DNA of 64,000 nucleotides, from assembly GCA_036898135.1 (NCBI GenBank), contig JBAHVR010000292.1, positions 524,501 to 588,500 on the forward strand, written 5' to 3'. Below, piece by piece: positions 13,126-60,632 of this stretch. Position 1 is the stretch's first letter, and the number at the start of each line of letters is the position of its first letter. This stretch comes from Oncomelania hupensis. Lineage: Eukaryota > Mollusca > Gastropoda > Littorinimorpha > Pomatiopsidae. The notes beneath the pieces are model-generated. The model was not told the DNA's origin. It did no database searches and saw only the letters and a list, made by a program, of their open reading frames with translations. A program made the position numbers and the translations under genes.

Positions 13126-14047
13126 CTGCCGACAAAATTATCACGATCAGATAAACAATAATAACATAAAAGACTAGAGTAGTCACACGAATTTCCGTTT
13201 CCTTTTGTAGTGGTATTGCTTGATAACGAAAGAAACATTGAAATCTGGGATGCAACATCTGTCGCAAAATGTATGGATGGTGAAGGAAAAGTATGCCAAA
13301 TGCGGTAGATCTATCACGCAGCAGTATGCTGAATATTTTTCAAACAAAAGCAGGCTTCCCAAAGACGCAGTAGGCTTATTTTTCCTTCATCTACGCCAAT
13401 TTAGTGCAGCAACTAATTTACCAACAGTAATAGCATTTCCACGTTTCCTACATTTCAATTAACCGATAATCAGATGAATAACATTGATACAAAAATAAAC
13501 TTCAATGCTTCTCTGATTATCAAGCATTAAAGGGGTGATACAGATAACAGATGACGATGTTTCCAGCAAGATGTGAAAAAGATGTTAAATATGTAAGTCG
13601 TAAGAATACAGGACCTACTTTAACGAATCGCTGTCTCTATGCCTATTCTGCAAAGACGGAAAATCCAAACGGTCTTCTAAGACTTGTATTTTGTAAGACG
13701 CGCTAAAACAGTAAGGTTTTATTCCCAAACCGTCACTAATTCACACAAAAAAATGCAGCAACAATGATCTCAAGGAAATGAGGAGTCAAAAGACTAAATG
13801 GACCGATTGAAACAGCAAATGCAACTGGCATTGATTTTTATTAGCTATCTAAGTTAGAGTTGACTGAAGACTAGGCCTACATTTTGAACGAAACGGAGGC
13901 GTTGTTTTTCACTGGTGAAGTCTGGTTGTAGGAACCTGTCATGTGTCACGTTCGGGAGTTCATTTTTCTTTACTCTGTGTATATGTGTAATTGGGCGGGT
14001 GGGTGATTGTGAGGGTGGGTGTATGCGCGTGCGTTTATGTTTGTGTT
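13126..14047. other. Intronic sequence without recognised elements
   Basis: No domain, tandem array or terminal repeat recognised. An 80-codon open frame on the plus strand at 13220-13462 has no recognisable motif and I did not call it. Confidence 0.4.
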
Positions 14048-15975
14048 CCTATCCTATCCTATCCCGTAACTCGGAGGTCGTAGGGGCACCACAGATTATT
14101 GTTTAACCAACGTACTCCAACTTTCTCTGTCCTCAGCAACCCTGATGGCTTCGCTCAGTGTCAAACCAGTCCATTCTCGAATGTTGTCCTCCCACCTCTT
14201 TTTCGGTCTCCCTCTTCTTCTACCTCCCTGCACTGTGCTTTGCAGGAGGGTCTTTGCAAGGCCTGATGATCTGGTGACGTGGCCATACCATCGGAGTTTC
14301 CGTTTCTTCACCACTGTGAGCAGGTCATCGTGTTGTCCAATGGCTTGTGTGATGGTCTGTCGGACTTCGTCGTTGGTGATGTACTGGGTACAGGAAATGC
14401 CCAGAAGTTTTCTGTAGCACCTCATTTCCATGCTTTGTATTCTTTGTTGGAGATCTGCTGCGAGGGTCCAAGTTTCGCAAGCGTATAGGAAGATGGAGGT
14501 GACAAGGGAGCGCAGCATTCTTACCTTGGAATGTAGACTGATGGTCCTGTCTTTCCAAATGGGCTTCAACCTTGCCAGGGCAGCAGTTGTTTGTGCGATC
14601 CTGGAGAGGACGTCCTGTCGAGACCCATTGTCTGATACAATGGCTCCTCAAAATTTGAAGCCATGCCCTGTGTTGAGGGATTGGACTTGGACTTTGATGT
14701 CCATGTTGAAGCCATTGGTATTGTTGGTCATCATTTTAGTCTTCTCTGCACTTATTTCCATTCCATAAGGCTCTGGAGGTGGTGTTAAGCCTCTGTACCA
14801 GCTGTTCAAGGTTCTTGTTTCTCTCCAGCCAATCCATCAATGTCATCCGCAAAACGAAGGTTGGAGAGTGCTCTACACCCTATGCTGACTGTGCCTTCGT
14901 GATCTGCAAGGGCATCTGACATGATGCGCTCTAGGAAGATGTTGAAGAGTGTTGGAGAAAGTAGGCATCCTTGACGCACACCGATTGTTGTTCTGAACCA
15001 GTTTCCGATGGCGCTGTTATGGAGGACTGCACTGGTAGCCTTGTAATGCAGGCTTTTGATGACTTCAATAATTTTAGGGTTAATGTTGTCCACTTTCATG
15101 GTTGCCCAGAGAATTGCATGCCAGACTCGGTCAAACGCCTTCTTGAAGTCTACGAACACACGATATAGATGTTATTGGTGCTGTAGGTATTTCTCGCAGA
15201 TTATTCTGAGGTTGAACATTTGTTCAGTGGTACTTCGCGCTGCCCTGAATCCTGCTTGTTCTTCAGGTATGATTTGTTCAGCTTGGGATTTCAACCTGTT
15301 GAGTTTTATTTTCAGGAGGACCTTGCTGGGATGGCTGAAGAGGCTGATGGTGCAATAATTTTCACACTCCTGAATGTTACCTTTCTTTGGAAGAGTGATG
15401 ATGGTGTCCATGGTGTAGGCCACTCACCACTCTGCCAGATCGTGTTACTGATAACGGTGAGTGCGTATATCATCGCTTCTCTTCCTGCTTGAAGCAGTTC
15501 CGCGAGTATGTTGACCACTTCCGCTGACTTCCCTTTCTTCCGCGATTGCACTGCTGCCTCAACTTCTTCTCGGAGAATTGGGAGGGTTTCTTCTTCTTCT
15601 CTGTTCTCGGGACATGCTAGAACTGATGGGTCTCCGTTTGGTGTGTGGTTGTAAAGTCAGAGCAGTACTCTGTCCAACTGTCCAAGACTTCTTGTTCTTC
15701 TGTAAGACATATGCCAGACTTATTTTGGATCGTGGAGACCTTAGGCTGTTTAACACTTGTCAGACGCTTCACAGTCTGGAAGGCCTTCTTGCTGTTGTTC
15801 TTGTTCAGATTGTTCTCTTTTTCCTGGCATTGCGCTTCTATCCAGTTCTCCTTTGCTGTGCGCATGCCTTTTCGGATGTCATTGTTGATTTTTCGGTAAG
15901 CATAAGCTCCCTCTGAGGTGTTCTTTTTATTTTTCATCTCTCTTCGCTTATCACACAGATCTCAAATTTCAGGGG
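14048..15975 (-). pseudogene. LINE-A copy, 3' portion (RT, thumb, C-terminal domain, tail)
   Basis: The (TATCC)n stretch at 14048-14066 is the minus-strand (GGATA)n tail. Reading leftward from 15975 the minus strand gives a degraded LINE-A ORF2. Landmarks are PAELLQAGREAM, GFRAARSTTEQMFNLRIICE, VDFKKAFDRVWHAILW, GVRQGCLLSPTLFNIFLE, FADDIDGLA (the RT catalytic aspartates present) and the C-terminal RWYGHVTRSSGLAKT...GRRRGRPKKRWEDNIREW. Several frameshifts separate these blocks. The copy continues at 23527-24072, on the other side of the Gypsy insertion. Confidence 0.9.
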
Positions 15976-17668
15976 TGTCACCGCCACGACTCTCCCTGGG
16001 CAGACGCCACAAACAAACAACTTCCACACGCAGACAACCCAGAAAGAATGACGATTTCCCGCAGACGGAAGTGATGAAAAACACAACAAATAATATACAA
16101 CTTTCAAGCTATTTATTCATTCATTCCACACACTCATACACATACAACATTTACACATGAAACGAAGAAATGGTAATGAAACAATCAATGGGTCAATGGA
16201 ACGATGCAATGGTTCGTGGGTGATCGGGGGTCGCTAATCGACCAACGTCCTCAAATCGAACGTGCACAGCCAAAGTCCGAGGCACGTGTTCACAAACAGA
16301 CAGGGGGGTTAAGCGTAGGAGAGGGACAACACAAAACGGGCCCACCTGGCGAAATGCAGTCCCTCGTAAAGTCTCCTCCAACGTGCTCGCCCCCTTCCGT
16401 TGACGTCCAAACGAAGGAGCGTTGCCACCCGTGGTCGCCACTGACGATGATGTTGAAGTGATGATGATGGCGCTGATAACAGGGGACGCGTGGACAATAA
16501 CAGATGGCGATGCTGATGATGTTTGGTCCACTTGACCAAGTGTCGTCGTCGTTGCTGCCTTGCGTTTTCCAGCGACGAACTGGCGGATTGACGAACGTTG
16601 AGCTGCGAACTTCAAACTCGAATTCAGTCCTCAACGACAATCCTCGACGAACCTGTAACATGCTTGTCGCATCGTAAATGTCATGTTCTCGATTCTGTCC
16701 CCCTCCCTCCATCACACTTACCCCCCCCCACACTCTCACTAGCCACTCCACTAAACTTCTGCCACTTGAGGGGTCCAACTGCAGTCTATTTCCCCTGGCC
16801 TTGACTCTCTCTCGCTTTCTACTGTTATCGTCACTTGAATCAAATACATATTATACAATTCAATGAAATCATGGATGCCTGGAATGAACGATGCTGCAAA
16901 TGAATACAAATAACCATCAACACATTATTCATATCAAGCATCCCCAACGACAACAACAGCAACCACTTCCATCCTAGCTTCATCACACTCCACCCCCTTT
17001 CTTCTCCCTCATTCTCCCTCCTTCCGACGCTCTCTTCCTTTCTTCTGCCTCTCCTCAGTGCAACCTTTCTCATCCTTCCTTACCCTTACGTACCAGCTAT
17101 CATTCAACACCCCAACAGCCGGCCCTTGGTTATTGGCACAGTAAGGAAAAACCACCATCCACTCACCCAACGGTTCGCATGAAATTGCACCCCGTAGCCC
17201 TTCTCCACTGCCCACCTACGAAAGTACATCCAATTAGGGTAATCCGGTAGTGTGTAGTTCCCGTAGTAGACAATACCTCGATACTACCTACCACACTACC
17301 ACAGACTTGCTTTTCTACAGCTGCACTCCAACTGAGCGTATCACTTCAGAAATTTGCAATCTTTAAACTAGTATCCTTCTCGGAACCAGATATTATTATC
17401 CGTTAATACCCGTCCCACCCTAATTCCAGAACACAGCAAAAACCACAGAGCACTAGACAAACACCGTCTACACTGTACTGCTGACAAACACGTTCTGACC
17501 ATAGTGAGCAAATTCCTAACCTGGCCTAACCGGCGTATGCTGTTTACCATGCTTTGCACGCTCCCGAGACAACAATAATCACGAATACGGCAACACGCAG
17601 TACCACCCCCGCCCCTACACTCTTCACACACGGACTACATGGCTTTCTTCACGGGCTGCCCTGTGACA
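15976..17668 (-). repeat. 3' LTR of the Gypsy element
   Basis: 1693 bp, TG...CA ended, nearly identical to 21827-23521. It is the 3' LTR because the coding frame is on the minus strand. Contains AT-rich stretches with TTTATT (AATAAA on the coding strand) near 16110-16116. Confidence 0.93.
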
Positions 17669-17684
17669 CACCCCCCTCCCAAGA
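17669..17684 (-). promoter_or_regulatory. Polypurine tract of the Gypsy element
   Basis: Minus strand reads TTGGGAGGGGGGTG directly before the 3' LTR (TGTCACAG). This is the expected position and composition for the plus-strand primer of reverse transcription. Confidence 0.8.
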
Positions 17685-17707: not shown

Positions 17708-20700
17708 TTAAACTTCCACAGGGTCAGATCTGCTGAGGAAATCCGCTTCAATGTTGTCTGTCCCTGGAATTGGTCGCACTGTGAAGACGTACGCCTGCAA
17801 CTGCATAGCCCACCGAGTGAGTCTGGCACTGTTGAGGTGCGTTCTCTGCAGGTACTGCAGCGGTCGATGGTCTGTCTCCAGCCAAAAGTGCCGTCCAAAC
17901 AGGTATGGTTCGAAACGTTGTACTGCCCACACAACTGCCAAACACTCCTTCTCAATGGTGGAGTAGTTTCGCTCTGCCGGCAGCAGCTTCTTGCTGGCAA
18001 ACCCTACCGGTTGCACACCCTCACCGGTTTCTTGCATCAGCGCAGCTCCTAGCCCTTGCTCGGATGCGTCTGTCCTCAGGATGAACTCCTTGTCCAGGTT
18101 CGGTAACTTGACCACTGGCTCACTGGTCAGCGCTCTCTTCAAGTCATCGAAAGCTTTCTGGCAGTCATCCGTCCAGTCGACCTCCCCCTTCTTCCCTCCT
18201 TTCGTCAAGTTGGTCAGCGGCAGTGCTCTCTCGGCGAAATGTGGCACGAATCGTCTGTAGTATCCGCACAACCCCAAGAACGCTCGGACTTGCTTCTTGG
18301 TTGTCGGTGGACACGTTCGGCGCACCTTGTCCAACTTGTCTCGTTCTGGCTTCATCGCTCCATCCCCCACTTGATGGCCCAGGTAGCTCAGCTCCTTGTA
18401 TCCCAGGAAACATTTGCTGGGTCTAGCGGCGAGATGCACCTCCTGCAGCCTCTGAAACACGGCTCTCAACGCTTGCAGATGCTGCTCCCACGTCTCGGTC
18501 GCGATCATGACGTCGTCCATGAAATTGTCGACGTCAGCTCGGTGCAGTGGTCGTAGCAGTTTCCGCATCATGCGTGAGAAAGTCGCCCCTGCAGTCTTCA
18601 GACCGAACGGCATCGTGGTCCATCTGAACTGGCCCTGCGGTGTCGTAAACGCCGTCTTGTCTCGGTCTTCCTGCTTGACAGGTATCTGCCAATACCCTTT
18701 TGTGAGGTCCAGCTTGCTTAGGTACTTGGCCTTCCCTAGCTTGGCGAACAAGTATTCGATGTCCGGTAGTGGTTCAGCATCGAACTTGACCGCCTTGTTC
18801 AACCCACGGTAGTCGATGCAGAATCGTACCTCCCCACTCTTCTTCCTCACCGACACGATCGGTGCGCTGTACGGCGATGTACAGGGTTCGATAACCCCCA
18901 ACTCCAGCATCGATTCCACTTCACCCTTGACGACTTCCATCTGTGAAAATGGTAGCGGATGCTGACGTATGCGCACAGGGCTGTCGTCGGTCAACACCAC
19001 CTCGCACTCGTCCAGGGTGGTGCGCTGGGGTAAATCCGTCAGCTGACTGGCATACCGTTGACACACTTCCCGTAGTTGGCTTTGGTGAAGTGCAGACAGT
19101 GTCGGGTCGATCTGTACGTTCCCCGGCCCTTCGCTTGCTCGTAGCGGTATCAGTGGTACCGTACCCTGGTAGCTGATGTCTGACATCTCCTCCGTTTCGG
19201 CCTGGTCAATCACCACTGCTACCGTCGTCTCTGGTTCCCCTCGGCGTTCCACATAGCGCTTCAGAAGGTTGGCGTGGTACAACTTCCTGTTCTTGCCGAC
19301 TCTCTGCACTGGTACCTTCTTGGCTCTCCCCTTTGGCGTCGTTCGCTGGCACACGTCGCATGAAGCACAGTACTTTCTCACATCACGGCACATCCCTGGC
19401 CAGTAGAACTCGGCCCACACTCGATCTTGAGTCCGCTTGGCTCCTAGATGTCCAGCCATGGGTGTGTCGTGTCCCATGCGCAGTACCTCCGATCGAAGCT
19501 TGGCTGGTACCACCAACTGGCTGTGATCCACTTTGTCCTGTCCTGTATACTCGCGGTACAACAGGCCCCGCTTCCAGACAAATGCCACTTGCCCCTTGCC
19601 TCGCTTCTCCTTTCCTGCCTTCCGGTCTGCTAGCTGTCGTACTTTCGCAAGCTCGCCGTCCTCCAACTGCAGTTGGCGAATCTCCTTCGGCGTCGCGACG
19701 ACGCTCTTGCTCGGTCCGACCACCACTGGTTCCGCAGCGACTTGGTCCTTGGCTGCCTGCGCTCTGGTTTGCACCGCGCAACACTCTGCGGCTCCCTCGA
19801 CGAACACCGGCAGTGCTGTGTCACCTTGCTGCTCCGTCCTCGCCCAGTTGCCGATCACCACTGGGTAAGTCAAGTCTGGTACCACCACTACCTCCACTTC
19901 CCCGGCGTAGAATGGTGATTCCAACTGCACCCACGCTGTCGGTAGCGACTTGGACAACTGGCGAATGGCGAATCCTACGCGCCGCGTGCGTCCCGTGTAC
20001 TTGAGGTTGGCAACCTCCCCTTCCCGCAAGCATATCAGGTCAGCTCCCGTGTCCCTCATTGCCGTCAGCGGAACACCTTCCACTATCACCTGGCTCTGGA
20101 AACGCGAGTCTCTCTTCGTGCCTGCCTCCTTCTCCTCCTCCAAGACGCGCAACGCTGCTCCAGCTCTCTCGCTGCGTTTCGGGCAATTCCGCTTAAGGTG
20201 CCCTTTCTGCCCGCAACTGTAGCATTCCCGCTTGTCCGGTGAGTTGGGTCGTGGTCCCGCTGGCTTGCGACCCTCGCTCTTATCCCTGGGTGTAAAGGGT
20301 TGACGTGGTGGGAAACGTAGGTTGGTTCCCGCCCTGGCGTCGACGTACTGCTGTGCTAACGTCGCGGCCTCCTCCACCGTTGCTGGGTTGCGCTCGCGCA
20401 CGAACGTGACCAGCTCTGGCGTCAAACCGTTGACCATCTGCTCCATCAGCACTAAGTCCAGTAAGTCCGCATACGTGGCCTTCTTGTTCGCTAGTCCCAT
20501 CCAGCGCTCCAGGAACAACTCTGACTTCCGCAGATACTGTTTGAAAGTCTCCGGTGGCTCCCTTCGTAGCTGGCGAAACTTCTTCCGATATGTCTCGGCC
20601 GTCAGGTTGAAACGCACCAACAACGCTGCCTTCAGGATCTCATAGTCGGCAGAGTCGTCCTCGTTCAAACCAACGTAAACTTCCCTCGCCTTCCCCTTCA

Positions 20701-21445
20701 ACAAGGTCCCCAAGCGAATAGCCCACGTGTCCTTGTTCCAGTCTTGAGCCTTGGCGAATCGCTCAAACTGACACAAGTAGGTCTCTAGGTCGTCCTTGTC
20801 CTCGAAAAACGGTAACCTGAGCTTGACCGTCTCGAACTCGGGTTGATTCCTGCGGTTTCCGGCGCCTTGCGACGTCAGCTGCGCCATCGCTAGCTCGTGT
20901 GCCATCTCTCTCTCCCTCTCTCTCTCTCTCCGGTCTGCATCTTCCCGGCTCGCCCTAGTCGCTTGGTCTATCGCGTAGTCTAACGCTGCCTGACCCTTCA
21001 GTCCTTCGCGCTTAGCGAGCCTCAAGATCCTCTCCATCGGCGTCTCGTCCGCGAACGGTCCTGTCTTCGGCGTCGGTGCCGCCTCGACCTTGTAGATAGA
21101 ACGGTAAGGATTGGTCTCAAACCTCTTCAGCCTCGTTGCATCGCTCAGTCGATCCTGGTCTCCGTAGAAGTCGGCGCCTGTCGACATCCCGCCAGTCACA
21201 CCAAATCCCGTCACAAAAGGGTCACTCACTGTGTTTCTGGCTTCCCACGTCGTCGACTCGTCGTCTGCTGACCCACGACGCGATGACTTGACCGGCGATC
21301 TCCGTTGCTCGATCGCAGAAGGTAGATCGGTGACTCCTGCATCCGCTGCCGACGTCGTCGCCCGCTCGTCCATCGTGACGCCCACGCGAGAACGCGTACG
21401 AGCCGCGATCGGTGACACTCCTTCAGCCTCCTCGTGCGATGCCAT
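17708..21445 (-). CDS. Gag-Pol polyprotein, Gmr1-like order, integrase core missing
   Basis: A single open frame of 1245 codons. I start it at MASHEEAEG because that ATG has a purine at -3 and G at +4; an in-frame ATG 14 codons upstream would add a Leu-rich stretch of repeat origin. Order of domains (residues approximate): Gag with an Arg/Glu-rich helix near 190 and a retrotransposon-gag fold to about 380; zinc knuckle CYSCGQKGHLKRNC near 407-423; aspartic protease with DTGA near 464; integrase H2C2 zinc finger at 655-700 (H...H...CASCDVC); a short KNRKLYHANLLKRY segment; RT with FMDDVM near 973; RNase H with TDAS near 1125, ending DFLSR. Integrase before RT is the order known for Gmr1 elements. 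The integrase DDE core is absent, replaced by a direct join after KKVPVQ. No frameshift or stop is present. Probably a deletion derivative that needs integrase in trans. Confidence 0.93.
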   Translation of the reverse strand: MASHEEAEGVSPIAARTRSRVGVTMDERATTSAADAGVTDLPSAIEQRRSPVKSSRRGSADDESTTWEARNTVSDPFVTGFGVTGGMSTGADFYGDQDRLSDATRLKRFETNPYRSIYKVEAAPTPKTGPFADETPMERILRLAKREGLKGQAALDYAIDQATRASREDADRREREREREMAHELAMAQLTSQGAGNRRNQPEFETVKLRLPFFEDKDDLETYLCQFERFAKAQDWNKDTWAIRLGTLLKGKAREVYVGLNEDDSADYEILKAALLVRFNLTAETYRKKFRQLRREPPETFKQYLRKSELFLERWMGLANKKATYADLLDLVLMEQMVNGLTPELVTFVRERNPATVEEAATLAQQYVDARAGTNLRFPPRQPFTPRDKSEGRKPAGPRPNSPDKRECYSCGQKGHLKRNCPKRSERAGAALRVLEEEKEAGTKRDSRFQSQVIVEGVPLTAMRDTGADLICLREGEVANLKYTGRTRRVGFAIRQLSKSLPTAWVQLESPFYAGEVEVVVVPDLTYPVVIGNWARTEQQGDTALPVFVEGAAECCAVQTRAQAAKDQVAAEPVVVGPSKSVVATPKEIRQLQLEDGELAKVRQLADRKAGKEKRGKGQVAFVWKRGLLYREYTGQDKVDHSQLVVPAKLRSEVLRMGHDTPMAGHLGAKRTQDRVWAEFYWPGMCRDVRKYCASCDVCQRTTPKGRAKKVPVQRVGKNRKLYHANLLKRYVERRGEPETTVAVVIDQAETEEMSDISYQGTVPLIPLRASEGPGNVQIDPTLSALHQSQLREVCQRYASQLTDLPQRTTLDECEVVLTDDSPVRIRQHPLPFSQMEVVKGEVESMLELGVIEPCTSPYSAPIVSVRKKSGEVRFCIDYRGLNKAVKFDAEPLPDIEYLFAKLGKAKYLSKLDLTKGYWQIPVKQEDRDKTAFTTPQGQFRWTTMPFGLKTAGATFSRMMRKLLRPLHRADVDNFMDDVMIATETWEQHLQALRAVFQRLQEVHLAARPSKCFLGYKELSYLGHQVGDGAMKPERDKLDKVRRTCPPTTKKQVRAFLGLCGYYRRFVPHFAERALPLTNLTKGGKKGEVDWTDDCQKAFDDLKRALTSEPVVKLPNLDKEFILRTDASEQGLGAALMQETGEGVQPVGFASKKLLPAERNYSTIEKECLAVVWAVQRFEPYLFGRHFWLETDHRPLQYLQRTHLNSARLTRWAMQLQAYVFTVRPIPGTDNIEADFLSRSDPVEV

Positions 21446-21807: not shown

Positions 21808-21826
21808 ACCCTGCATCTCCACCATA
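21808..21826 (-). promoter_or_regulatory. Candidate primer-binding site
   Basis: Minus strand reads TGGTGGAGATGCAGGG, starting two bases after the 5' LTR. A TGG-start a few bases inside the LTR is the usual signature of tRNA primer binding. I could not name the tRNA. Confidence 0.55.
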
Positions 21827-23521
21827 TGTCACCGCCACGACTCTCCCTGGGCAGACGCCACAAACAAACAACTTCCACACGCAGACAACCCAGAAAGAAT
21901 GACGATTTCCCGCAGACGGAAGTGATGAAAAACACAACAAATAATATACAACTTTCAAGCTATTTATTCATTCATACCACACACTCATACACATACAACA
22001 TTTACACATGAAACGAAGAAATGGTAATGAAACAATCAATGGGTCAATGGAACGATGCAATGGTTCGTGGGTGATCGGGGGTCGCTAATCGACCAACGTC
22101 CTCAAATCGAACGTGCACAGCCAAAATCCGAGGCACGTGTTCACAAACAGACAGGGGGGTTAAGCGTAGGAGAGGGACAACACAAAACGGGCCCACCTGG
22201 CGAAATGCAGTCCCTCGTAAAGTCTCCTCCAACGTGCTCGCCCCCTTCCGTTGACGTCCAAACGAAGGAGCGTTGCCACCCGTGGTCGCCACTGACGATG
22301 ATGTTGAAGTGATGATGATGGCGCTGATAACAGGGGACGCGTGGACAATAACAGATGGCGATGCTGATGATGTTTGGTCCACTTGACCAAGTGTCGTCGT
22401 CGTTGCTGCCTTGCGTTTTCCAGCGACGAACTGGCGGATTGACGAACGTTGAGCTGCGAACTTCAAACTCGAATTCAGTCCTCAACGACAATCCTCGACG
22501 AACCTGTAACATGCTTGTCGCATCGTAAATGTCATGTTCTCGATTCTGTCCCCCTCCCTCCATCACACTTACCCCCCCCCCCCACTCTCACTAGCTACTC
22601 CACTAAACTTCTGCCACTTGAGGGGTCCAACTGCAGTCTATTTCCCCTGGCCTTGACTCTCTCTCGCTTTCTACTGTTATCGTCACTTGAATCAAATACA
22701 TATTATACAATTCAATGAAATCATGGATGCCTGGAATGAACGATGCTGCAAATGAATACAAATAACCATCAACACATTATTCATATCAAGCATCCCCAAC
22801 GACAACAACAGCAACCACTTCCATCCTAGCTTCATCACACTCCACCCCCTTTCTTCTCCCTCATTCTCCCTCCTTCCGTCGCTCTCTTCCTTTCTTCTGC
22901 CTCTCCTCAGTGCAACCTTTCTCATCCTTCCTTACCCTTACGTACCAGCTATCATTCAACACCCCAACAGCCGGCCCTTGGTTATTGGCACAGTAAGGAA
23001 AAACCACCATCCACTCACCCAACGGTTCGCATGAAATTGCACCCCGTAGCCCTTCTCCACTGCCCACCTACGAAAGTACATCCAATTAGGGTAATCCGGT
23101 AGTGTGTAGTTCCCGTAGTAGACAATACCTCGATACTACCTACCACACTACCACAGACTTGCTTTTCTACAGCTGCACTCCAACTGAGCGTATCACTTCA
23201 GAAATTTGCAATCTTTAAACTAGTATCCTTCTCGGAACCAGATATTATTATCCGTTAATACCCGTCCCACCCTAATTGCAGAACACAGCAAAAACCACAG
23301 AGCACTAGACAAACACCGTCTACACTGTACTGCTGACAAACACGTTCTGACCATAGTGAGCAAATTCCTAACCTGGCCTAACCGGCGTATGCTGTTTACC
23401 ATGCTTTGCACGCTCCCGAGACAACAATAATCACGAATACGGCAACACGCAGTACCACCCCCCGCCCCTATACTCTTCACACACGGACTACATGGCTTTC
23501 TTCACGGGCTGCCCTGTGACA
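21827..23521 (-). repeat. 5' LTR of the Gypsy element
   Basis: 1695 bp, partner of 15976-17668. Differences noted by eye include CATACC for CATTCC, AAATCC for AAGTCC, a longer poly-C run near 22575, GCTACT for GCCACT, CGTCGC for CGACGC, ATTGC for ATTCC and TATAC for TACAC. Confidence 0.93.
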
Positions 23522-23526
23522 AGGCG

Positions 23527-24072
23527 TGATCCACGCCTTGTTCTTTGGTCGGTGTTTGCCAAGGATCTCAGTGGCGGCATCTGTCACAGCTGAGTTGAAG
23601 GTGGTGGTCATGGTGTAGACATTTATTTTACCAGCTCTCAAAATGAGCAGTGGTGCAAATTTCCCTCCAATTGTTGCCTGAAATATTTTTGCCACCTCCG
23701 GGTCTCGCAGTTTGTCCAGGTCGAACTTCAGTCTAGTGCACTTTGCTGTGTTTACTCTCTTCAAGTGGAGCCGGAAAGATATCATCACGAGATCGTGGTC
23801 ACTTCCGATGTCTGCTCCTGGAAAGCAGCGTGTCCTGCCAATATTGATGCTTGATCTGAAGCGTTTCTTGACCATGATGTAGTCGATCTGGTTGTGGTGC
23901 TCCCCGCCGGGACTGTGCCATGTCAATCGTCTGTATTTTTTGTGGAGATTAAGCGTGTTTGTCAGTAACAGATTGATGTATCTGGCAAACTCCTTGAGTC
24001 TCAGACCCCTGTCATTTGTCTCGTTGTTGCAGTGGGGCCCATATGTGTCTCATCAGTTGTGGTGCGCATCTT
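23527..24072 (-). pseudogene. LINE-A copy, 5' remnant (endonuclease end), partner of 14048-15975
   Basis: The minus strand encodes TWHSPGGEHHNQIDYIMVKK, RFRSSINIG and GSDHDLVMISFRL, the last endonuclease motifs (SDHD) of LINE-A. It then runs through the linker to the Gypsy junction at KHRPKNKAWITP. The 5' end breaks off at about 24072 inside the endonuclease domain (5' truncation). Confidence 0.88.
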
Positions 24073-24246
24073 GTGTCCGTGCTGACTAAATGTGAAGGAA
24101 ATCTGATTTTTGGACTATTTTTGGTTGCGCATTCGGATGACATTTTTGTAAAAGCAATGTGTAAAGTGGTCGTTTACGCACATCCTTCTTCTCTAGTCTA
24201 ACTCCGATTCATCTTTTTTCCAATTGAAGAAATTGATACATAAATG

Positions 24247-25442: not shown

Positions 25443-28400
25443 CAAGGACTACTAAATGAAAGGACATGCACGCTCTGTGTTCTGCCTCTGCTAGCGAAGG
25501 CCAGTTTTTGCACCAGCGTAAGAGGCTCTGTTTAGCACTACATCACTTTGCCCTGGCGCAGTGATATGAAGTAAACTATTTAACAAAAAATTGAATACTC
25601 TTTACTACTAAGATGCATTGTATAAATGGTTTATGTCATTTTTAGTTTATGCAATGACAAATGAAGAACTAATAGCCGCTAATACGTTTTTAAATAACCC
25701 AGCATTCTCTCACAATTTTTCAAGGCGTATGTTTAGAACAGAAAAAAGGCGAAGTTTGGTTTCCAACATGGAGGCGTTTTGTTGTGAAATTCCACGTCGC
25801 TGAGATTGTTTTTAAGTTTTCTAGCCTGTATTTCATCAACATACCTAATAAATGTGATATAGTGAAAGTTTTTTTTATCTATGAGAAACATTGGCCTTCA
25901 AATCCTCCCATGATCAAAATCCCAGGTGGTTCCACTCGACCAGCAGTTCCTCCTAGCATCTTTAATGTTCCTTCTTCTTGTTTGCCTACTGCAAAGCCTC
26001 CACCTCGCCCTACAAATCGAGAAGACCAACAACTGAAGCACTTTCTGAGGAAAGATAGGATCACTTCATTTTCTGAATTTGCTCCTGACAAAGAGTTGCA
26101 TAAGAAGTATGATAATTTGATTATTTCTAGATCTGGGGATAAATTTGTTTGTGTTTTCATGACAAAGGAATATCAAGAATGTAAACTGACTGTGATAGTT
26201 GAAAATAAACCAACCTTGTGCTCTCCACTCATATTGTCTGCTTTCAAGAATGGTATCCATGTACCACTTGGCAAAATTCTCAACCCAAATAATGGATTTG
26301 CTTCATATTCACAGTTTTTTGAGGCTGTGCATTTGTCTCAAAATTATGACATTCCTGTGGATGATCTGATTAGGAAAGTTGTGACAATGCTACAGGATCA
26401 AGAACTAAATGAAGAAGACCAAAAAATTATATTTCTTAACGCATCAACTCCAACAGCTAATTTCAAAACACTTTTCAATGAGAGACTATTGCTTTGCTGT
26501 ATAATCATTTCCCAAATGTAATTATGAACTTTTAAGAGAGTATTTAGTGTTGCCATCCAAGAGAAAGCTGTAAGCCATAATATCATCTGTGAATATTGAT
26601 GAATTGTTGAATACAACTTTTCAGAAATTGCAGAAAGATCTGCAAAAGAATGTGTTTTTGTTGGTCGATGAAGTAACAATTCGCCCAACAATTGCATCCT
26701 CTGGGGGGATTTTGAAAGGCATAGCAACAAATGACCATGATTCCAGAGCGACATCAATGCTGTGTGTGATGATGAAATGTCTACACAGGGGACCCAGTAT
26801 CATGATTTCTGTCACACCAGTCCACAAGTTGACAGCTGCCTACCAGTTCAATGTTGTCAAAGCAGCCGCAGCCAAAGTTGAGAAAGCTGGTGGGATTGTT
26901 TTGGGATCCATCACTGACAATCACAAAGTTAATCAGCAATTCTGTAAGCTTTTCTCTCAAATGACTGACTGCTCTTCAACAGCCACCCACCCATTGGATG
27001 AGACTCGTGTCTGGTATCTTTTATTTGACACCGTGCATCTCTTGAAGTGTATCCGCAACAATTGGATCACTGAAAAGTGCCAGAGACTGACGCTGGACAA
27101 ACAGTCTGTTGGATCATTCTTGGATGTAAAGAAGCTGTATGAGGCTGAGAAACACAGTATCTTAAAGACCTCTCCTCTCACTCAAGCGGCAGTCTATCCT
27201 TCTAAACTTCAACTGCAGAATGTTCAGCATGTACTCAAAGTTTTCAATGACAAAGTGGTGGCTGGACTCAAGTTACAAGGGAATCATGAAACTGCTAACT
27301 TTATTCAAACTGTTCTGGATTGGTGGAATATGGTCAATGTTTCAGCAAAAGGACAAGATATCCGCATGAATGATCCACATCGAAGTGTTCAAGACAAACA
27401 ATCAACCAATTTAACTAAATTTTTTCATCAGTTTGAAGCTGCAGATTCAGGGCATGGTGCAGGTCGAGAAGAGTGTCTAACTCATGATACCAAGAAGGCG
27501 TTGGTGCAAACAATGAAAGGATTTGTTTCTGTTTGTAACCACTTAATGACAAATGCAGGATTTGACTATGTTTTGCTGCGAGAAATTCAGAGTGACAGGA
27601 TTGAAGACGAATTTTCAGTGTATCGACAGTCCACAGGAGCAAATGCCTTCATGACATCCAGTGATGTTCTTGCAGCATGTAAAAAACGCCTAGCTAGACA
27701 TGCTGCATCATATCTCCAGTCATTGGAATTCCAAAAGGAGGAAAATAAACACACCTGTGTGGGCTCTATGAATACTGATGATGCTGCTTTCATAGAAAGT
27801 AGCATAGAGAACGTCACTCTGACCACTAATGAAGATAACAGTGCTGCTTATGTGGCTGGATGGCTGGAGCGTAAGTGTGAAGATCAGATCAAGTTTGATG
27901 ATGAAGAACCTTTAGTGACAAGTGAAGTGAAGGACTTTGTAGAGGAAGTATCTAGGGGGTCACTTAAAGTTCCTTATGAATGTACCTATGAACTTGTCCG
28001 AGTTGGACTGACTTTAGTCAAAAATGCAAGGCAGAGCATGTTGTTGCCAAAGACTTGTTGCGATTTTGTCCACAATGCAGCAATTCTATGACATTGGCCC
28101 ACAATGTGAAATATTACTGAGACATTTGGCAAATGTGCTTTTGAGTGGATTACACAATTTAGAAAAAGATCATCAAAAGAATGGACTACTTCTTCAGACA
28201 TCTATCAAACGAGCTCGTCTGCTGGATTAATTCATTTCTGCTGTGCTGGTAAGCTTATTTTGTTTTATACGCTGTTTACATGTTCAACAATAATTTTTAA
28301 TGCAATTTTAAAAACATTAATTTAATACAACAATCATAATGACATGAGTAGTGAAGCTTGTTTAAAAAAAAGTCACAGGTAAGGAGAAAATGAATGGCCT

Positions 28401-28455: not shown

Positions 28456-28463
28456 ATCCAGAC

Positions 28464-30919
28464 CTATGCCCCAACATCAGACTATGACGACAGCGAAGTG
28501 GAGGATTTTTATGAAAATCTACAGGCTGTCCTTGACCAAGTGCCAAAAAAGGACATAGTCATAGTGCAAGGCGACTGGAATGCCAAGGTTGGCCAAGATG
28601 CGCACCACAACTGGGGAGACACATGTGGACCTCACTGCAACAACGAAACAATTGACAGGGGTCTGAGACTCTTGGAGTTTGCCAGATACAACAATCTGGT
28701 ACTGGCAAACACGCTTGGTCTCCACAAAAAATCCAGACGATGGACATGGCACAGTCCCGGCGGGGAGCAACACAACCAGATCGACTACATCATGGTCAAG
28801 AAACGCTTCAGATCAAGCATCAACATTGGCAGGACACGCACTTTTCCAGGAGCAGACATCGGAAGTGACCACGATCTCGTGATGATGTCTTTCCGGCTCC
28901 ACTTGAAGAGAGTAAATACAGCAAAGCAAAGTGCCCTAGACTGAAGTTCGACATGGACAAACTGCAAGACCCGGAGGTGGCAGAACTATTTCAGGCCACA
29001 ATTGGAGAGAAATTTGCACCATTGCTCATTTTGGGGGCTGGTGAAGTAGATGTCAACACCATGACCACCACCTTCAACCTAGCTGTGACAGATGCCGCCA
29101 CTGAGATCCTTGGCAAGCACCGACCAAAAAAAAAGCCGTGGATCACACCTGAACTTTTGGATCTGTGTGATAAACGAAGAGAGATAAAAAAGAAAAAGAA
29201 CACCTCACAGGGAGCTGATGTCTACCGAAAAATCAACAATGACATCCGAAAAGGCATGCGCACACCAAAGGAGAACTGGATAGAAGATCAATGCCAGGAA
29301 ATAGAGAACAGCCTGAACAAGAACAACAGCAAAAAGGCCTACCAGACTGTGAAGCGGCTGACAAGTGTTAAACAGCCCAAGGACTCCACGATCCAAAGCA
29401 TGTCTGGCATATGCCTTACAGAAGAACAAGAAGTCTTGGACAAATGGACAGAGTATTGCTCTGACCTTTACAACCATACACCAGATGGAGACCCATCAGT
29501 TCTAGCATGTCCCGAGAACAGAGAAGAAAAAGAAACCCTCCCAATTCACCGGGAAGAAGTTGAGGCAGCAGTGCAATCGCTGAAAAAAGGGAAGTCAGCG
29601 GGAGTGGACAACATACCCGCGGAACTGCTTCAAGCAGGAGGAGAAGCGATGATTGATGCTCTCACCATTATCTGTAACAAGATCTGGCAGAGTGGGGAGT
29701 GGCCTACACCAAGGACCCAGTCGCTTGTCATCACTCTTCCCAAAAAAGGTAACCTTCAGGAATGTGAAAATTATTGCACCCTCAGCCTCATCAGCCATCC
29801 CAGCATGGTCCTCCTGAAAATAATACTCAACAGGTTGAAACCCCAAGCTGAACAAATCATAGCTGAAGAACAAGCAGGATTCAGGGCAGGGCGAAGTACC
29901 ACTGAACAGATTTTCAACCTCAGAATAATCTGTGAGAAATACCTACAGCACCAACAACATCTATATCATGTGTTCTTAGACTTCAAGAAGGCGTTTGACC
30001 GAATCTGGCATGCAGCTCTGTGGGCAACCATGAGAGTGAACAACATCAGCCCTAAAATTATTGAAGTCATCAAAAACCTGTATGACAAGGCTACCAGAGC
30101 AGTTCTCCATAACAGCGCCATCGGGAACTGGTTCAGAACAACAATCGGTGTGCGTCAAGGATGCCTACTCTCTCCAACACTCTTCAACATCTTCCTAGAG
30201 CGCATCATGTCAGATGCCCTTGCAGATCACGAAGTCACAGTCAGCATAGGGGGTAGAGCAATCTCCAATCTTTGTTTTGCGGATGACATTGATGGATTGG
30301 CTTGAGAGGAACAAGAACTTGAACAGCTGGTACAGAGGCTTGACACCACCTCCAGAGCTTATGGAATCGAAATAAGTGCAGAAAAGACCAAAATGACAAC
30401 ACCAATGGCATCAACACGGACATCAAAGTCCAAGGCCAATCCCTCAACACAGTGCATAGCTTCAAATATTTAGGAGCCATTGTATCAGACAATGGGTCCC
30501 AACAGGACGTCCTCTCCAGGATCGCACAAACAACTGCTGCCCTGGCAAGGTTGAAGCCCATTTGGAAAGACAGGACCATCAGTCTACATTCCAAAGTAAG
30601 ACTGCTGCGCTCCCTTGTCATCTCACAGCAGATCTACAACGAAGAATACAAAGCATGGAAATGAGGTGCTACAGAAGACTTCTGGGCATTTCCTATACCA
30701 CCAACGACGAAGTCCGACAGACCATCACACAAGCCATTGGACAACACAGTGGTGAAGAAACGGAAACTCCGATGGTATGACATTCGAGAGTGGACTGGTT
30801 TGACACTGAGCGAAGCCATTAGGGTTGCTGAGGACAGAGAGGGATGGAGTATGCTGGTTAAACGATCATTTGTGGTTTCCCTACGACCTCCGAGTTACGG
30901 GACAGGATAGGATAGGATA
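28464..30919 (+). pseudogene. LINE-A ORF2, right part: endonuclease end, RT, C-terminal domain
   Basis: Blocks in order: VQGDWNAKVGQDAHHNWGD and GSDHDLVMMSFRL (endonuclease); an open frame 28953-30305 with ITLPKKGNLQECENYCT, FLDFKKAFDRIWH, GVRQGCLLSPTLFNIFLE and FADDIDGLA, ending at a TGA right after the RT catalytic motif; then a shifted C-terminal part with a deletion that removes RWYGHV...GRPKKRW. The tail at 30900-30919 is (GGATA)n. Compared with the copy at 57-60 kb it has one premature stop, some frameshifts and a deletion. Confidence 0.9.
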
Positions 30920-38529: not shown

Positions 38530-40812
38530 GTGGTCGTTGAACCTGTAGTAACGTGAGGTTCCTCCGCCCTGGCTGGTGACTTCTGTGTAGAAGACTTTCG
38601 CCCAGTGATGCCGTGCTAACATCACCCCTGTTAGTCGCCTCTTACGACACGCCGGGAAACGTTGGGTCTATTCTATTTAATGCCCGAACCCACAGAGCTC
38701 AGGGCCAAGGCGAGCCACACTGTATTTGTGGATTTTGGCTGTGGCCAACAGCCTGGAGAGGATTGGGCACCGCCAGGTCATTTTTGCCCAAGACACACTA
38801 CATGGTGAAGCTATCCACTAATTCCATACCGGATCGGTCGTCGCCCAGCACAAGGACCGCGCCTTCAGTTGGCCACCAGGACGGAGGTGATAAGTATGCT
38901 AGTGATGGACAAATTAGCAAGATCCGCACAAGAAACAACATCGTCATAGGAACCTGGAATGTCAGGACCCTAACTGCGTAAGGAAAATTAGAAGAACTGG
39001 CCCACGAGCTGGACCACTATCGATGGAACGTTCTAGGTATCAGCGAACTGCGCTGGAAAGGCCTAGTTGAAACAACGACCGACAAAGGCCGCAAGCTCTA
39101 TTTCAGCGGTAGAGATGACAGGCACGAACACGGCGTTGGATTCTTGGTCCACAAGAACATTCTAGCCACTGTCATGGGTTGCCGCCCAGTCTCTAGACTC
39201 ATTACCATCCGTCTAAGAGCAGCCCCTTTCAACATCACCATCATCCAGGCCTATGTCCCAACATCAGACTATGACGACAGCGAAGTGGAGGATTTTTATG
39301 AAAATCTACAGGCGGTCCTTGACCAAGTGCCGAAGAAGGACCAAGTCATAGTGCAAGACGACTGGAATGCCAAGGTTGGCCAAGATGCGCACCACAACTG
39401 GGGAGACGCATGTGGACCCCACTGCAACACCGAGACAAATGACAGGGGTCTGAGACTCTTGGAGTTTGCCAGATACAACAATCTGGTACTGGCAAACACG
39501 CTTGGTCTCCACAAAAACTCCAGACGATGGACATGGCACAGTCCCGGCGGGGAGCATCACAACCAGATAGACTACGTGTAGATAGACTACTGTGTATGTA
39601 TGTGCGCGCGTGTATGCGTATGTATATAAGCATACCGTGTGTGTGTGTAGCCTATGTCTGTGTGTGGGGGGAGAGGAGACTGTATTCAGCTTGCTGCTAT
39701 ACCGATGGAGGGGAATACACATTTCTTGATTATGATTATGATTATGATTATTATTACATCATGGTCAAGAAACGCTTCAGATCAAGCATCAACATTGGCA
39801 GGACACGCATTTTTCCTGGAGCAGACATCGGAAGTGACCACGATCTCGTGATGATGTCTTTTCGGCTCCACTTGAAGAGAGTAAATACAGCAAAGTGCAC
39901 TAGACTGAAGTTCGACCTGGACAAACTGCAAGACCCGGAGGTGAACAATTGGAGGAAAATTTGCACCACTGCTCATTTTGAAGGCTGGTGAAGTAGATGT
40001 CAACACCATGACCACCACCTTCAACTCAGCTGTGACCGATGCTGTAACTGAGATCCTTGGCAAGCACCGACCAAAGAAGAAGCCGTGGATCACACCTGAA
40101 CTTTTGGATCTGTGTGATAAACGAAGAGAGATAAAAAAGAAAAAGAAAACCTCACAGGGAGCTGTCTACCAAAAAATCAACAATGACATCCGAAAAGGCA
40201 TGCTCACAGCAAAGGAGAACTATAGAAGATCAATGGCAGGAAATAGAGAACAGTCTGATCGCACAAACAACTGCTGCCCTGGTGAGGTTGAAGCCAATTT
40301 GGAAAGACAGGACCATCAGTCTACATTCCAAGGTAAGACTGCTGCGCTCCCTTGCCATCTCTATCTTCCTATATGCTTGCGAAACATGGACCCTCACAGC
40401 AGATCTCCAACGAAGAATACAAAACATGGAGGTGAGGTGCTACAGAAGACTTTTGGGTATTTCCTATACCCAGCAATCACCAACGACGAAGTCCGAAAGA
40501 CCATCACACAAGCCATTGGACAACACGATGACCTGCTCACAGTGGTGAAGAAAAGGAAACTCCGATGGTATGGCCACGTCACCAGATCATCAGGTCTTGC
40601 AAAGACCATCCTGCAAGGCACAGTGCAAGGAGGTAGAAGAAGAAGGAGACCAAAAAAAGATGGGAGGACAACATTCGAGAATGGACTGGTTTGACACTGA
40701 GCGAACCAATCAAGGTTGCTGAGGACAGGGAAAGATGGAGTACGCTGGTGAAACCATCATCTGTGGTGCCCCTACGACCTCCGAGTTACGGGATAGGATA
40801 GGATAGGATAGG
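38530..40812 (+). pseudogene. LINE-A copy with inverted 5' end and RT deletion
   Basis: Bases 38530-38695 are the reverse complement of the LINE-A leader at 57001-57163, and from 38696 on (GCTCAGGGCC) the copy runs forward. The endonuclease is readable: NIVIGTWNVRTLTA, then a stop, NVLGISELRWKG, and VQDDWNAKVGQDAHHNWGD, where Asp replaces Gly. A 170-base insertion at about 39578-39750, with GT- and GATTAT-rich ends, splits the endonuclease. At 40253 the sequence jumps from the linker (EIENSL) to IAQTTAALVRLKPIW, so the whole RT core is gone. The C-terminal domain (RWYGHVTRSSGLAKTILQGT) and (GGATA)n tail remain. Confidence 0.9.
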
Positions 40813-41125
40813 AACATATGTGGCAGAAAATGGGTTATTACTATCTGGAGAGAAAACAAGCTTAATGCTTTTCAATAATGGTGAAAACCCTAAAACATTG
40901 TCAGAATTAAAACTGGAAGAAGCAAAAATATTATATAAAGAAAATATTAAAGTTCTAGGTGTATATTTTACTCCCAAAATAAATTGGAAATTTGATATTG
41001 AATATTTAGTTAACAATGCATGACTAAGATTACATTTATTAAAGATAATAAGCGCACGACTTTTAAGCCAAGATATGAACATTTTATTACATGTAGCTAC
41101 TTCTTTAGTAAGATCTAAGTAATAC
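40813..41125 (+). pseudogene. LINE family E fragment, RT thumb region
   Basis: YVAENGLLLSGEKTSLMLFN, then KVLGVYFTPKINWKFDIEYL, stop, and LRLHLLKIISARLLSQDMNI. The layout (GLxLSxxKTxxMLF followed by VKVLGVxF) is the palm-thumb part of an RNase H-bearing LINE. It abuts the LINE-A tail on its left. Confidence 0.7.
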
Positions 41126-56254: not shown

Positions 56255-56998
56255 TGGGGCGCACTGTGTCCATTTATTCTATGTGACCATTCTATACATA
56301 GAATAAATTCTATGCACATAGAAAGCATTCTATGCACACAAAAAGCATTCATTAGTTGAAATTCCATTTATAAAAAAGAAAACAATATTGTAAGTAATAG
56401 AATAAAATTCTTTGTATAGAATAACATTCTATAATATAGTGTAAAATTCTATGTCCATAATAAAATTCTATGTATAGAATAACATTTTATAATAGAGAAT
56501 AAGATTCTATGTATGTAATACAATTGTATATTATAGTATGCATAGAATTATATTCTATAACATAGAATGAATTCTATTACAAAGAATGAATTCTATAACA
56601 TAGAATGAATTCTTTAACATAAAATAAATTGCATGACATAGAATGAATTCTATGACATAGAATTTATTCTATAGCATAGAATGAATTCTATAACATAGAA
56701 TGAATTCTATAGCATAGAATGAATTCTATGTGCATAGAATAAATTGTATAACATAGAATGAATTCTATAATAAAGAATGAATTCTATATGCATAGAATTA
56801 ATTTTATAGCATAGAAGGAAGTCTATGACATAGAATTCATTCTATGACATAGAATGAATTCTATAGGCATAGAATGAATAGTATAACATAGAATGAATAA
56901 GATGACATAGAATTAATTCTATGACATAGAATTAATTCTATAACATAGAATTAATTCTATAACATAGAATGAATTCTATAGCATAGAATGAATTGTGC
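56255..56998. repeat. TAGAAT satellite, left array
   Basis: Near-palindromic 19-bp phrases of the type ATAGAATGAATTCTATAAC, with ACAT or GCAT connectors, repeat through the interval. The first 300 bases are more degenerate. The array runs up to the 5' end of LINE-A. Confidence 0.92.
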
Positions 56999-59900: not shown

Positions 59901-60335
59901 ATGCTTGCGAAGCATGGACCCTCACAGCAGATCTCCAACGAAGAATACAAAGCATGGAGATGAGGTGCTACAGAAGACTTCTGTGCATTTCCTATACCCA
60001 ACACATCACCAACGTTGAAGTCCGACAGACCATCACACAAGCCATTGGACAACACGATGACCTGCTCACAGTGGTGAAGAAAGAAACTCTGATGTATGGC
60101 CACGTCACCAGATCATCAGGCCTTGCAAAGACCATTCTGCAAGGCACAGTGCAAGGAGGTAGAAGAAGGGGGAGACCGAAAAAGAGGTGGGAGGACAACA
60201 TTCGAGAATGGACTGGTTTGACACTGAGCGAAGCCATGAGGGCTGCTGAGGACAGAGAAAGATGGAGTATGCTGGTTAAGCGATCATCTGTGGTGCCCCT
60301 ACGACCTTCGGGTTATGGGACAGGATAGGATAGGA
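56999..60335 (+). mobile_element. LINE-A: near-full-length RTE-like retrotransposon
   Basis: Leader begins CTCTGTGGGTTCGGGC at 56999 and includes the conserved CGTAAGAGGCGACTAAC at about 57046. The 3' end is (GGATA)n at 60318-60335, with essentially no 3'UTR because the stop lies within the tail. Simple-repeat tails and a single endonuclease/RT protein without RNase H fit the RTE clade. It is inserted inside the TAGAAT satellite, which hides the target duplication. Confidence 0.9.
57270..60328 (+). pseudogene. LINE-A ORF2: AP endonuclease and reverse transcriptase, one frameshift
   Basis: The frame is open from 57231 (Met candidates at 57231 and 57270) to 59633, about 800 codons, then needs a one-base shift near 59511 to enter the frame that runs to 60328. 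Relative to residue 1 at 57231: endonuclease GTWNVRTLTAEGKLEELAHE near 64, VQGDWNAKVG near 198, DYIMVKKRF near 275, GSDHDLVMMSF near 299; RT SLVITLPKKGNLQECENYRT near 583, FIDFKKAFDRVWH near 667, GVRQGCLLSPTLFN near 725; FADDIDGLA lies just after the shift. The C-terminal domain has FKYLGAIVSDNGSRQE, IFLYACEAWTLTADLQRRIQ and GRRRGRPKKRWEDNI. The shift corresponds to one missing base in a G-run relative to the copy at 30.2 kb. The most intact copy in the window. Confidence 0.92.
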
Positions 60336-60632
60336 TAGAATTTATTCTACAGCAGTGAATGAATTCTATGTTACAGAATGAATTCTATGTCATAGAATTC
60401 ATTCTATGCTATAGAATTCATTCTATGTTATAGAATTCATTCTATGCTATAGAATAAATTCTATGTCATAGAATTCATTCTTTGCTATAGAATTCATTCT
60501 ATGTTATAGAATTCATTCTATGTCATAGAATTCATTCTACGTCATATAATTCATTCTATGTTATACTATAAATTCTATGCTATAGAATTCATTCTATGTC
60601 ATAGAATTCATTCTGTGTTATAGAATGAAATC
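60336..60632. repeat. TAGAAT satellite, middle array (opposite orientation)
   Basis: GAATTCATTCTATGTTATA, 19 bp, repeated. The asymmetric connector (GTTAT) is the complement of the connector left of LINE-A (ATAAC), so the two arrays are inverted relative to each other. Confidence 0.9.

Follow-up and report, generated by a model that had tools for sequence, protein, structure and literature searches.

How does a retrotransposon come to lack the catalytic core of its integrase while its frame stays open from Gag to RNase H, and is such an element one dying copy or the member of a lineage? The question is raised by a Gypsy element in a 64,000-nucleotide stretch of the Oncomelania hupensis genome (hereafter the window). 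Here, we propose that it is, very probably, one copy of an old, amplified and non-autonomous Ty3/Gypsy lineage of integrase-first (Gmr1) order, explained by deletion, recombination and integrase that would be supplied by a complete sister.

The window element

The LTR-flanked Ty3/Gypsy element spans window positions 23521-15976 on the minus strand, and its one open frame has the order Gag(SCAN)-CCHC-PR-H2C2-tail-RT-RNase H (Table 1). This agrees with the original prediction, made from the letters of the DNA, of an uninterrupted Gag-to-RNase H frame with the H2C2 finger before RT. The Ty3/Gypsy hallmarks present are TG...CA LTR ends, a primer binding site (which we take to be tRNA-Ala-like), a polypurine tract, and Gypsy-type Gag and RT-RNase H; the best solved relative of the protein by sequence is the Ty3 polyprotein. 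The LTRs are nearly identical, as predicted (1686 identities, 7 mismatches, 2 gaps), and their flanking pentamers agree at 4 of 5 bases. The element sits inside a LINE-like repeat, with uninterrupted homologues of the repeat near 29144 and 58403.

The DDE integrase core typical of Ty3/Gypsy, and present in the complete sisters described below, was found neither in the window frame (no rve match, PF00665, up to E 1 in Pfam) nor elsewhere in the 64 kb (tblastn with three rve-carrying relatives as queries), and its predicted absence is borne out. One enzyme has been removed from the middle of the frame and the remainder kept.

Table 1. Features of the core-less Gypsy element, in window coordinates
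Feature	Position	Strand	Detail
5' flanking pentamer CGCCT, probable target-site duplication	23522..23526	-	
5' LTR	21827..23521	-	1695 bp; begins TGTCAC, ends GTGACA
Primer binding site TGGTGGAGATGCAGGG	21809..21824	-	
Single open frame	17708..21445	-	1245 aa; sole stop is the frame end
SCAN/capsid part of Gag	20333..20596	-	aa 284-371; PF02023, E 5.7e-12
CCHC zinc knuckle (zf-CCHC)	20177..20227	-	aa 407-423; PF00098, E 1.5e-5
Aspartic protease region, DTG motif	19916..20092	-	aa 452-510; PF13975 gag-asp, E 0.042, weak (below Pfam cut-off)
Integrase H2C2 zinc finger, retained	19334..19510	-	aa 646-704; PF17921 Integrase_H2C2, E 3.3e-22
30-nt linker deletion point, GTACCA/GTG	19309..19310	-	
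771-nt integrase-core deletion point, CAGAGA/GTCGGC	19300..19301	-	
Retained integrase C-terminal tail KNRKLYHANLLKRYVER	19244..19294	-	
Reverse transcriptase, RVT_1	18368..18850	-	aa 866-1026; PF00078, E 1.9e-33
RNase H	17789..18097	-	aa 1117-1219; PF17917, E 6.2e-39
Polypurine tract GGGAGGGGGGTG	17669..17680	-	
3' LTR	15976..17668	-	1693 bp
3' flanking pentamer CCCCT, probable target-site duplication	15971..15975	-	

A lineage and its complete sister

Taken alone, the window shows one copy, as would be seen if an ordinary genomic deletion had removed the core from one complete element already inserted, and such private deletions do occur, one core-less copy (L005) having a different join that was found at a single site. 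However, the common join occurs at 482 sites in the host genome (reversed-pattern control, 1), and it is common to 19 of 20 fetched core-less loci, which are spread over many contigs at differing divergence. For the window join, single-copy deletion after insertion is refuted, since unrelated target sites with duplications carry the same join, and we consider this explanation vanishingly improbable. Since the same join recurs across the host genome, the loss of the core very probably founded a lineage, one that is old, amplified and non-autonomous, and the original proposal of many copies with one join holds.

The expected complete relative is also found in the same genome. The corresponding boundary in complete elements occurs at 100 sites (83 of them exact; control, 0), and joins outnumber complete boundaries by almost five to one. 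Of 17 interrupted (complete-type) matches, 16 have frames 1527-1560 aa long, although a single one of these 16 has an in-frame stop in one piece, and the complete sisters L022-L025 have integrase ahead of RT. Frames free of a stop or frame break were found in 16 of the 20 core-less loci, a proportion overestimated by the choice of these loci as the best-scoring ones.

Several core-less copies were copied recently in their deleted form, as had been proposed: LTR overlaps are without mismatch in 8 of the 18 measurable copies and differ by 0.10-0.45% in 8 more, and five of six copies checked have perfect 5-bp target duplications, different in each, beside intact TG...CA ends. Spread without integrase, by segmental duplication or repair-mediated capture of cDNA, would suit the sixth copy (L014), where no target duplication was seen and a primer binding site follows the LTR, an arrangement expected of tandem or recombined copies; set against the duplications of the other five, such spread is extremely improbable. 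The duplications indicate integrase-type insertion, whatever the source of the integrase.

The deletion

Compared with the core-less form, complete copies in the host genome have 771 nt extra between GTSGGC direct repeats, and the in-frame deletion of this segment takes away the entire DDE core. A separate 30-nt linker deletion lies between GTRCCA repeats and is present in 18 of the 20 core-less copies examined; of the 19 with the common join, L016 is core-less without the linker loss and the other 18 have both. The original prediction was right that the core is missing without a frame break, with the correction that the gap reflects two deletions. The deletion would have arisen as a jump between direct repeats during reverse transcription.

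Could splicing instead have removed the core as an intron, followed by reverse transcription of the shortened RNA? The left edge (AGA/GTGGGC) does begin with GT, but the right edge ends in CAA and not AG in all four complete copies, and a repeat is present at the join. A codon test, for which the window contexts had been guessed from relatives until host DNA replaced them, also took in the core-less oyster and scallop proteins described below: the oyster GHM class formally fits a GT-AG intron (8 placements) and one AT-AC placement is possible for the GQM class, whereas no GT-AG placement exists for the GQM class or the scallop join. We consider splicing very improbable.

Recombination and the source of integrase

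In early RT, 15 of the 20 core-less copies lie within 1.5% of some complete copy, but every one of the 20 is at least 6% away from complete copies immediately to the left of the join. A tree of residues 561-712 splits 17 complete-type from 20 core-less copies by one change (91/90), a split that is not strongly supported and for which the bootstrap had not settled, and in the RT-RNase H tree four complete copies fall among core-less ones. Windowed distances put the switch between histories near the join (codons 713-715, which the linker deletion leaves ambiguously aligned, were not counted among unshared sites). These patterns show that the core-less and complete forms recombine; their RNAs therefore probably share particles. 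Core-less and complete copies exchange sequence as a single pool, with separation maintained chiefly around the join; a pool of this kind offers a natural test of how cheaters survive among retrotransposons.

Which integrase, then, inserts the core-less copies? Our best reading, drawn from sequence comparison, is that it would be supplied in trans by the complete sister: core-less RNA would be packaged together with complete RNA and undergo reverse transcription inside that common particle, after which the complete element's integrase would insert the cDNA. Integrases can act on similar LTR ends, and the enzyme might instead come from another Gypsy family in this host. Against this, the complete sister shares the primer binding site motif (seen in complete L023 and L024 as well as in 19 of the 20 core-less loci), is near-identical to core-less copies in RT-RNase H, and recombines with them. 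Compared with core-less LTRs, that of complete L024 is 98.6% identical over 422 bp and those of L022 and L023 about 93%, with no LTR match for L025. We thus regard integrase from another family as unlikely, and supply by the complete sister as the preferred reading.

Conservation of the remaining frame

Core-less subfamilies reach dS values of about 0.4 with dN/dS of 0.10-0.19 (17 of the 20 core-less copies; L005, L013 and L021 left out), and the orphan H2C2 finger has a pN/pS of 0.12, with the HHCC residues intact in 24 of 24 copies. Conserved sequence imported by recombination with complete copies could mimic selection on core-less ones. The rest of the frame has been kept far longer than the age of the examined insertions. 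The age of the lineage, its sequence conservation and its recombination with the complete form go beyond what had been claimed for this element.

What might the role of the retained finger and tail be? They may still act in a mixed complex, and one tentative option, which we think less probable than its opposite, is that they function as a mini-integrase: lacking catalysis, this subunit would associate with complete integrase on core-less cDNA, or would hinder the integration of complete copies. If so, both the conservation of the finger and the almost five-to-one excess of joins would be explained, and the deletion would be a selfish gain by which core-less RNA takes over the helper's particles. 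The lineage is also a natural test of what the integrase zinc finger does without a catalytic core.

Known systems

In the open-access papers searched we found no integrase-core-less Gypsy lineage. The nearest known kind is the mouse IAP IΔ1 subfamily, described as internally deleted LTR elements with a fused frame that need proteins in trans from complete elements and give rise to most new insertions (PMC7411935). In both, many copies have one deletion in common, and the genome also harbours a complete helper from their own family. However, IAP IΔ1 is an endogenous retrovirus whose deletion in the gag-pol region yields a Gag-Pol fusion, whereas the window lineage is Gypsy and loses the integrase core only, with Gag, PR, RT and RNase H staying in frame.

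Plant LARD, TRIM, TR-GAG and BARE-2 elements are defined by little or no coding capacity, by Gag only or by the lack of Gag, and the window lineage is unlike them in having Gag, PR, RT and RNase H in one open frame. All are described as LTR elements missing domains needed for mobilisation (PMC10025401). For Onsen, an Arabidopsis Copia family, pairwise recombination among family members during transposition is reported, in an account whose relevant parts do not describe a core-less lineage exchanging sequence with a helper (PMC5668417).

The Gmr1 clade of Ty3/Gypsy is described as defined by integrase ahead of RT (PMC6238403, PMC8220671). The window element resembles it in this order and in its SCAN-type capsid, and differs from complete members, which have the DDE core. 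Among the 120 relatives listed from 2293 hits, the H2C2 finger precedes RT in all 120 and rve is present in 119, as expected from the integrase-first order originally proposed. The Gmr1 order is found in these 119, in complete L022-L025 and, by finger and tail, in the core-less lineage; RT trees held relatives and Ty3 only, and the assignment to Gmr1 here is by domain order.

Similar losses in bivalves

In Crassostrea/Magallana oysters, 39 protein records lack the DDE core between finger and tail, all with the join at one position, and a complete relative (P0213) accompanies them, much as in the window lineage. The core was lost independently in oysters, by a different deletion of 261 residues (known here from protein records), and perhaps in a scallop too, where the gap is an identical 261 residues in a gene model marked low quality (P0219). 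Tree labels change four times, with core-less and complete oyster rows identical or nearly so, and we claim three losses. With integrase ahead of RT, as in the Gmr1 order, RT survives loss of the core only if the loss is in frame, and this may account for the similar losses in the snail, in oysters and perhaps in the scallop.

From protein relatives, the left break of the window element had seemed to share its codon with the oyster and scallop breaks, a reading dropped once host DNA put the core break about a dozen residues rightward. G-x-M flanks both sides of the core in 13 of 139 complete relatives parsed, P0213 and P0223 among them, and hints weakly at repeat-driven loss in bivalves. Two Haliotis gene models (P0190, P0197) and one from Babylonia (P0029), used as yardsticks in the codon test, each admit one GT-AG placement, and we treat them as annotation introns instead of core-less elements; partial losses in Batillaria (P0079), Nucella (P0138), Littorina (P0055, P0098) and others were set aside. 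No relatives were found in the viral contigs searched; a search of genome contigs returned one complete element, within a bacterial bin.

The element and its join

In Oncomelania hupensis, a Ty3/Gypsy lineage shares a deletion of the integrase DDE core (rve) at many sites, with recent insertions bearing integrase-type duplications, complete sisters, and recombination between the two forms. The RNAs of core-less and complete copies probably occupy shared particles, with core-less copies probably integrating by means of the complete sister's integrase, a mode matched by mouse IAP IΔ1 elements (PMC7411935). The available parts of two mollusc surveys (PMC6238403, PMC10294476) do not mention the core-less lineage.

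The window copy (L002) has an intact frame of 1245 residues in the order SCAN/capsid, CCHC, protease (a weak match), integrase H2C2 finger, LYHANLLKRY (the retained integrase C-terminal tail), RT, and RNase H. A domain search of this frame found no integrase core up to E 1, and tblastn across the 64 kb with three rve-carrying relatives matched this element only. The enclosing LTRs are 1695 and 1693 bp long (1686 identities, 7 mismatches, 2 gaps), and the element carries a polypurine tract and a primer binding site (PBS), the latter presumably of the tRNA-Ala type. It is inserted in a LINE-like repeat, and uninterrupted homologues of the site are present in the window; several copies of this family, about 90-95% alike, have endonuclease and RT domains. 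The window also holds an open frame whose product matches the TNP-like RNase H N-terminal domain (PF21787, E 5.3e-10) and which we take to be a relative of P-element-like transposases, an open frame directly upstream that matched no family, and tandem arrays of a palindromic unit (roughly 19-21 bp around ATAGAAT...ATTCTAT).

Coordinates of the element, neighbouring features, and individual loci (window positions unless a contig is named)
Feature	Position	Strand
Core-less element (L002)	23521-15976	minus
Frame of L002	21445-17708	minus
LINE-like copy	14047-15977	
LINE-like copy (same family)	23522-24073	
LINE-like copy	28456-30624	
LINE-like copy	38690-40815	
LINE-like copy	57159-60338	
LINE-like copy	62331-64000	
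TNP-like frame	26574-28091	plus
Frame without family match	25694-26521	
Palindromic array	56397-56994	
Palindromic array	60363-60626	
Palindromic array	61397-61637	
L005, core-less	G000:C11:40466984-40473682	
L046, partial core loss	G000:C2:114874634-114875260	
L037, 3' side of L014	G000:C8:57730900-57731328	

Across the four fully read complete copies (L022-L025), the left edge reads CAG AGA GTG GGC ATC GAC and the right edge GTC CAA GTC GGC AGG AAC; apart from small variants, the core-less join is CAG AGA GTC GGC A(A/G)G AAC. By arithmetic from this comparison, the deletion between two GTSGGC repeats removed 257 codons (771 nt). A further 30 nt were lost between GTRCCA repeats in 18 of the 20 core-less loci (L002-L021), and this linker is kept in core-less L016. 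The deletion may have arisen during reverse transcription, which the repeats at the joins fit, or in chromosomal DNA. A GT-AG intron is not supported, because all four complete copies have CAA at the end of the right edge. The join of L005 differs, lying at an AGGAAG repeat, and this join occurs at a single site genome-wide. The LTRs of L005 are free of mismatches over 869 bp and its 5-bp duplication is perfect; the locus also has an in-frame stop.

Copies in the host genome

Our search covered 1.45 Gb (428 contigs) and scored the best candidates, so locus numbers are lower bounds: at least 20 places match across the join, at 91-100% protein identity, and in at least 17 the match stops at residue 715-716 and restarts at 715. 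Frames of 1527-1560 aa occupy 16 of these 17 interrupted places (one piece of one of them contains an in-frame TAG), in support of the complete relative proposed in the original reading. The seventeenth, L046, is otherwise complete-type with a 1334-aa frame, its core partly removed in frame by another join, between ...MPVMED and TCQLAQEH.... With up to 2 mismatches allowed, a 23-base pattern spanning the join occurs at 254+228 sites against 0+1 for the reversed-pattern control, and a 23-base pattern over the left edge of the complete core at 54+46 (83 exact; control 0), both being counts of sites, not proven intact elements, which diverged copies escape. The join is thus common to many sites; many copies with one join would, on the original reading, mark a successful non-autonomous lineage.

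The mapped frame is free of stops and frame breaks in 16 of the 20 core-less loci, a best-scoring set that overstates intactness, and is broken in L005, L011, L013, and L021. LTR overlaps of 352-1120 bp are comparable in 18 loci (L015 and L016 have none): eight show no mismatch, eight 0.10-0.45% divergence, L011 0.91%, and L017 1.83%. Among the outer flanks of six core-less copies, five carry perfect, different 5-bp target duplications (AGGCG, CCAGC, CTCTC, GATGC, ATCCT), and the sixth, L014, has LTR then PBS instead. The mismatch-free overlaps and perfect duplications agree with the predicted recent copying of the deleted form.

On the 3' side of L014, its own PBS follows the LTR end, a pattern seen in tandem or LTR-recombined copies. 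Of the 20 core-less loci, 19 contain the PBS motif, as do complete L023 and L024; the L022 and L025 stretches start too far inside to contain it. Both LTRs of L004, L007, and L021 lack about 513 bp (window LTR positions 506-1017), forming an LTR subfamily.

Recombination, age, and selection

We sorted 17 of the 20 core-less copies into four groups, labelled A to D here. In residues 561-712, one change splits 17 complete-type from 20 core-less copies (support 91/90; recovered in 90% of 200 bootstrap trees; none of 500 shuffles gave as few changes), on a branch that is not starred and with a bootstrap that is not settled, and the RT-RNase H tree places the four complete copies among A and B copies. 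Distances from each core-less copy to the nearest of those four are at least 6.0% for all 20 in residues 631-712; in residues 718-780 they are 0-1.6% for seven A and 5.8-18.5% for seven B copies; in residues 861-950 they are 0-0.4% for the seven B copies and within 1.5% for 15 of the 20. Codons 691, 694, 698, and 711 are the clearly alignable sites with no base common to the 14 A/B and four complete copies. These comparisons indicate that core-less and complete copies recombine. Use of two RNAs in one particle as templates explains the switch in distance along the element; such exchange between copies is reported for Onsen in Arabidopsis (PMC5668417).

Between groups A and C, whole-frame dS is 0.37, and dS for residues 600-712 is 0.46; within C, dS is 0.35. 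In the 25 codons left of the join, copies L002 and L011 are separated by 9 synonymous and 4 other codon changes, and in the 25 to its right by 7 and 2. Since group divergence extends up to the join, these estimates indicate that the core-less lineage is far older than its dated insertions. Over the frame, core-less groups give dN/dS values of 0.10-0.19, and complete copies give 0.13. The HHCC residues of the finger are retained in 24 of 24 copies, and finger pN/pS is 0.12 in eight disjoint core-less pairs (21.5/1192 vs 54.5/368; Fisher P 2.6e-19, treating sites as independent), a low value to which exchange with complete copies could contribute. It is 0.06 in two complete pairs, and the short tail is less constrained than the finger (0.26).

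Relatives and parallel losses

Among the 120 matches listed, of 2293 in the first protein search, all 120 have the H2C2 finger before RT and 119 contain rve, bearing out the proposed integrase-first order; P0079, the one without rve, is a gene model from which other parts are missing too. In the 54-row RT-RNase H tree, a six-row clade (support 100/98) unites the window element with its sister group of five rve-carrying relatives, among them one from Littorina saxatilis. Integrase-first order is the mark of Gmr1 (PMC6238403, PMC8220671), which is listed as spanning several phyla (PMC8556966); in this order the window element resembles Gmr1.

Complete integrase-first Gypsy elements also appear in bacterial symbiont bins (L001, JAQRGB010000044.1, and protein P0237; Thiodubiliella, Thiodiazotropha), probably as host DNA inside those bins. 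In gene models from Haliotis (P0187, P0197, P0198), Babylonia (P0029), and Littorina (P0098), pieces of integrase are missing from one common aligned Val (GTN) codon onward; these are likely annotation introns able to mimic integrase loss, the codon test having been applied to P0197 and P0029 only.

A join-region query gave 196 matches and an oyster-hit query 388, with 120 listed for each, and queries containing a join favour joined proteins, so no loss rate is derivable. Among the matches listed, both recovered Crassostrea/Magallana proteins without rve, and at least 39 oyster records have a common join position (GQM in 26, GHM in 13), which are not 39 loci, since they span two species and multiple annotations. 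P0213, a complete relative, has about 99% identity to the oyster core-less proteins in the common part and is 261 residues longer there. The same 261 residues are missing from P0219, a low-quality scallop gene model that pairs with Pecten P0223 at 100/100. Because core-less elements each group with complete relatives in trees, at least three losses would be needed, provided the scallop model is correct.
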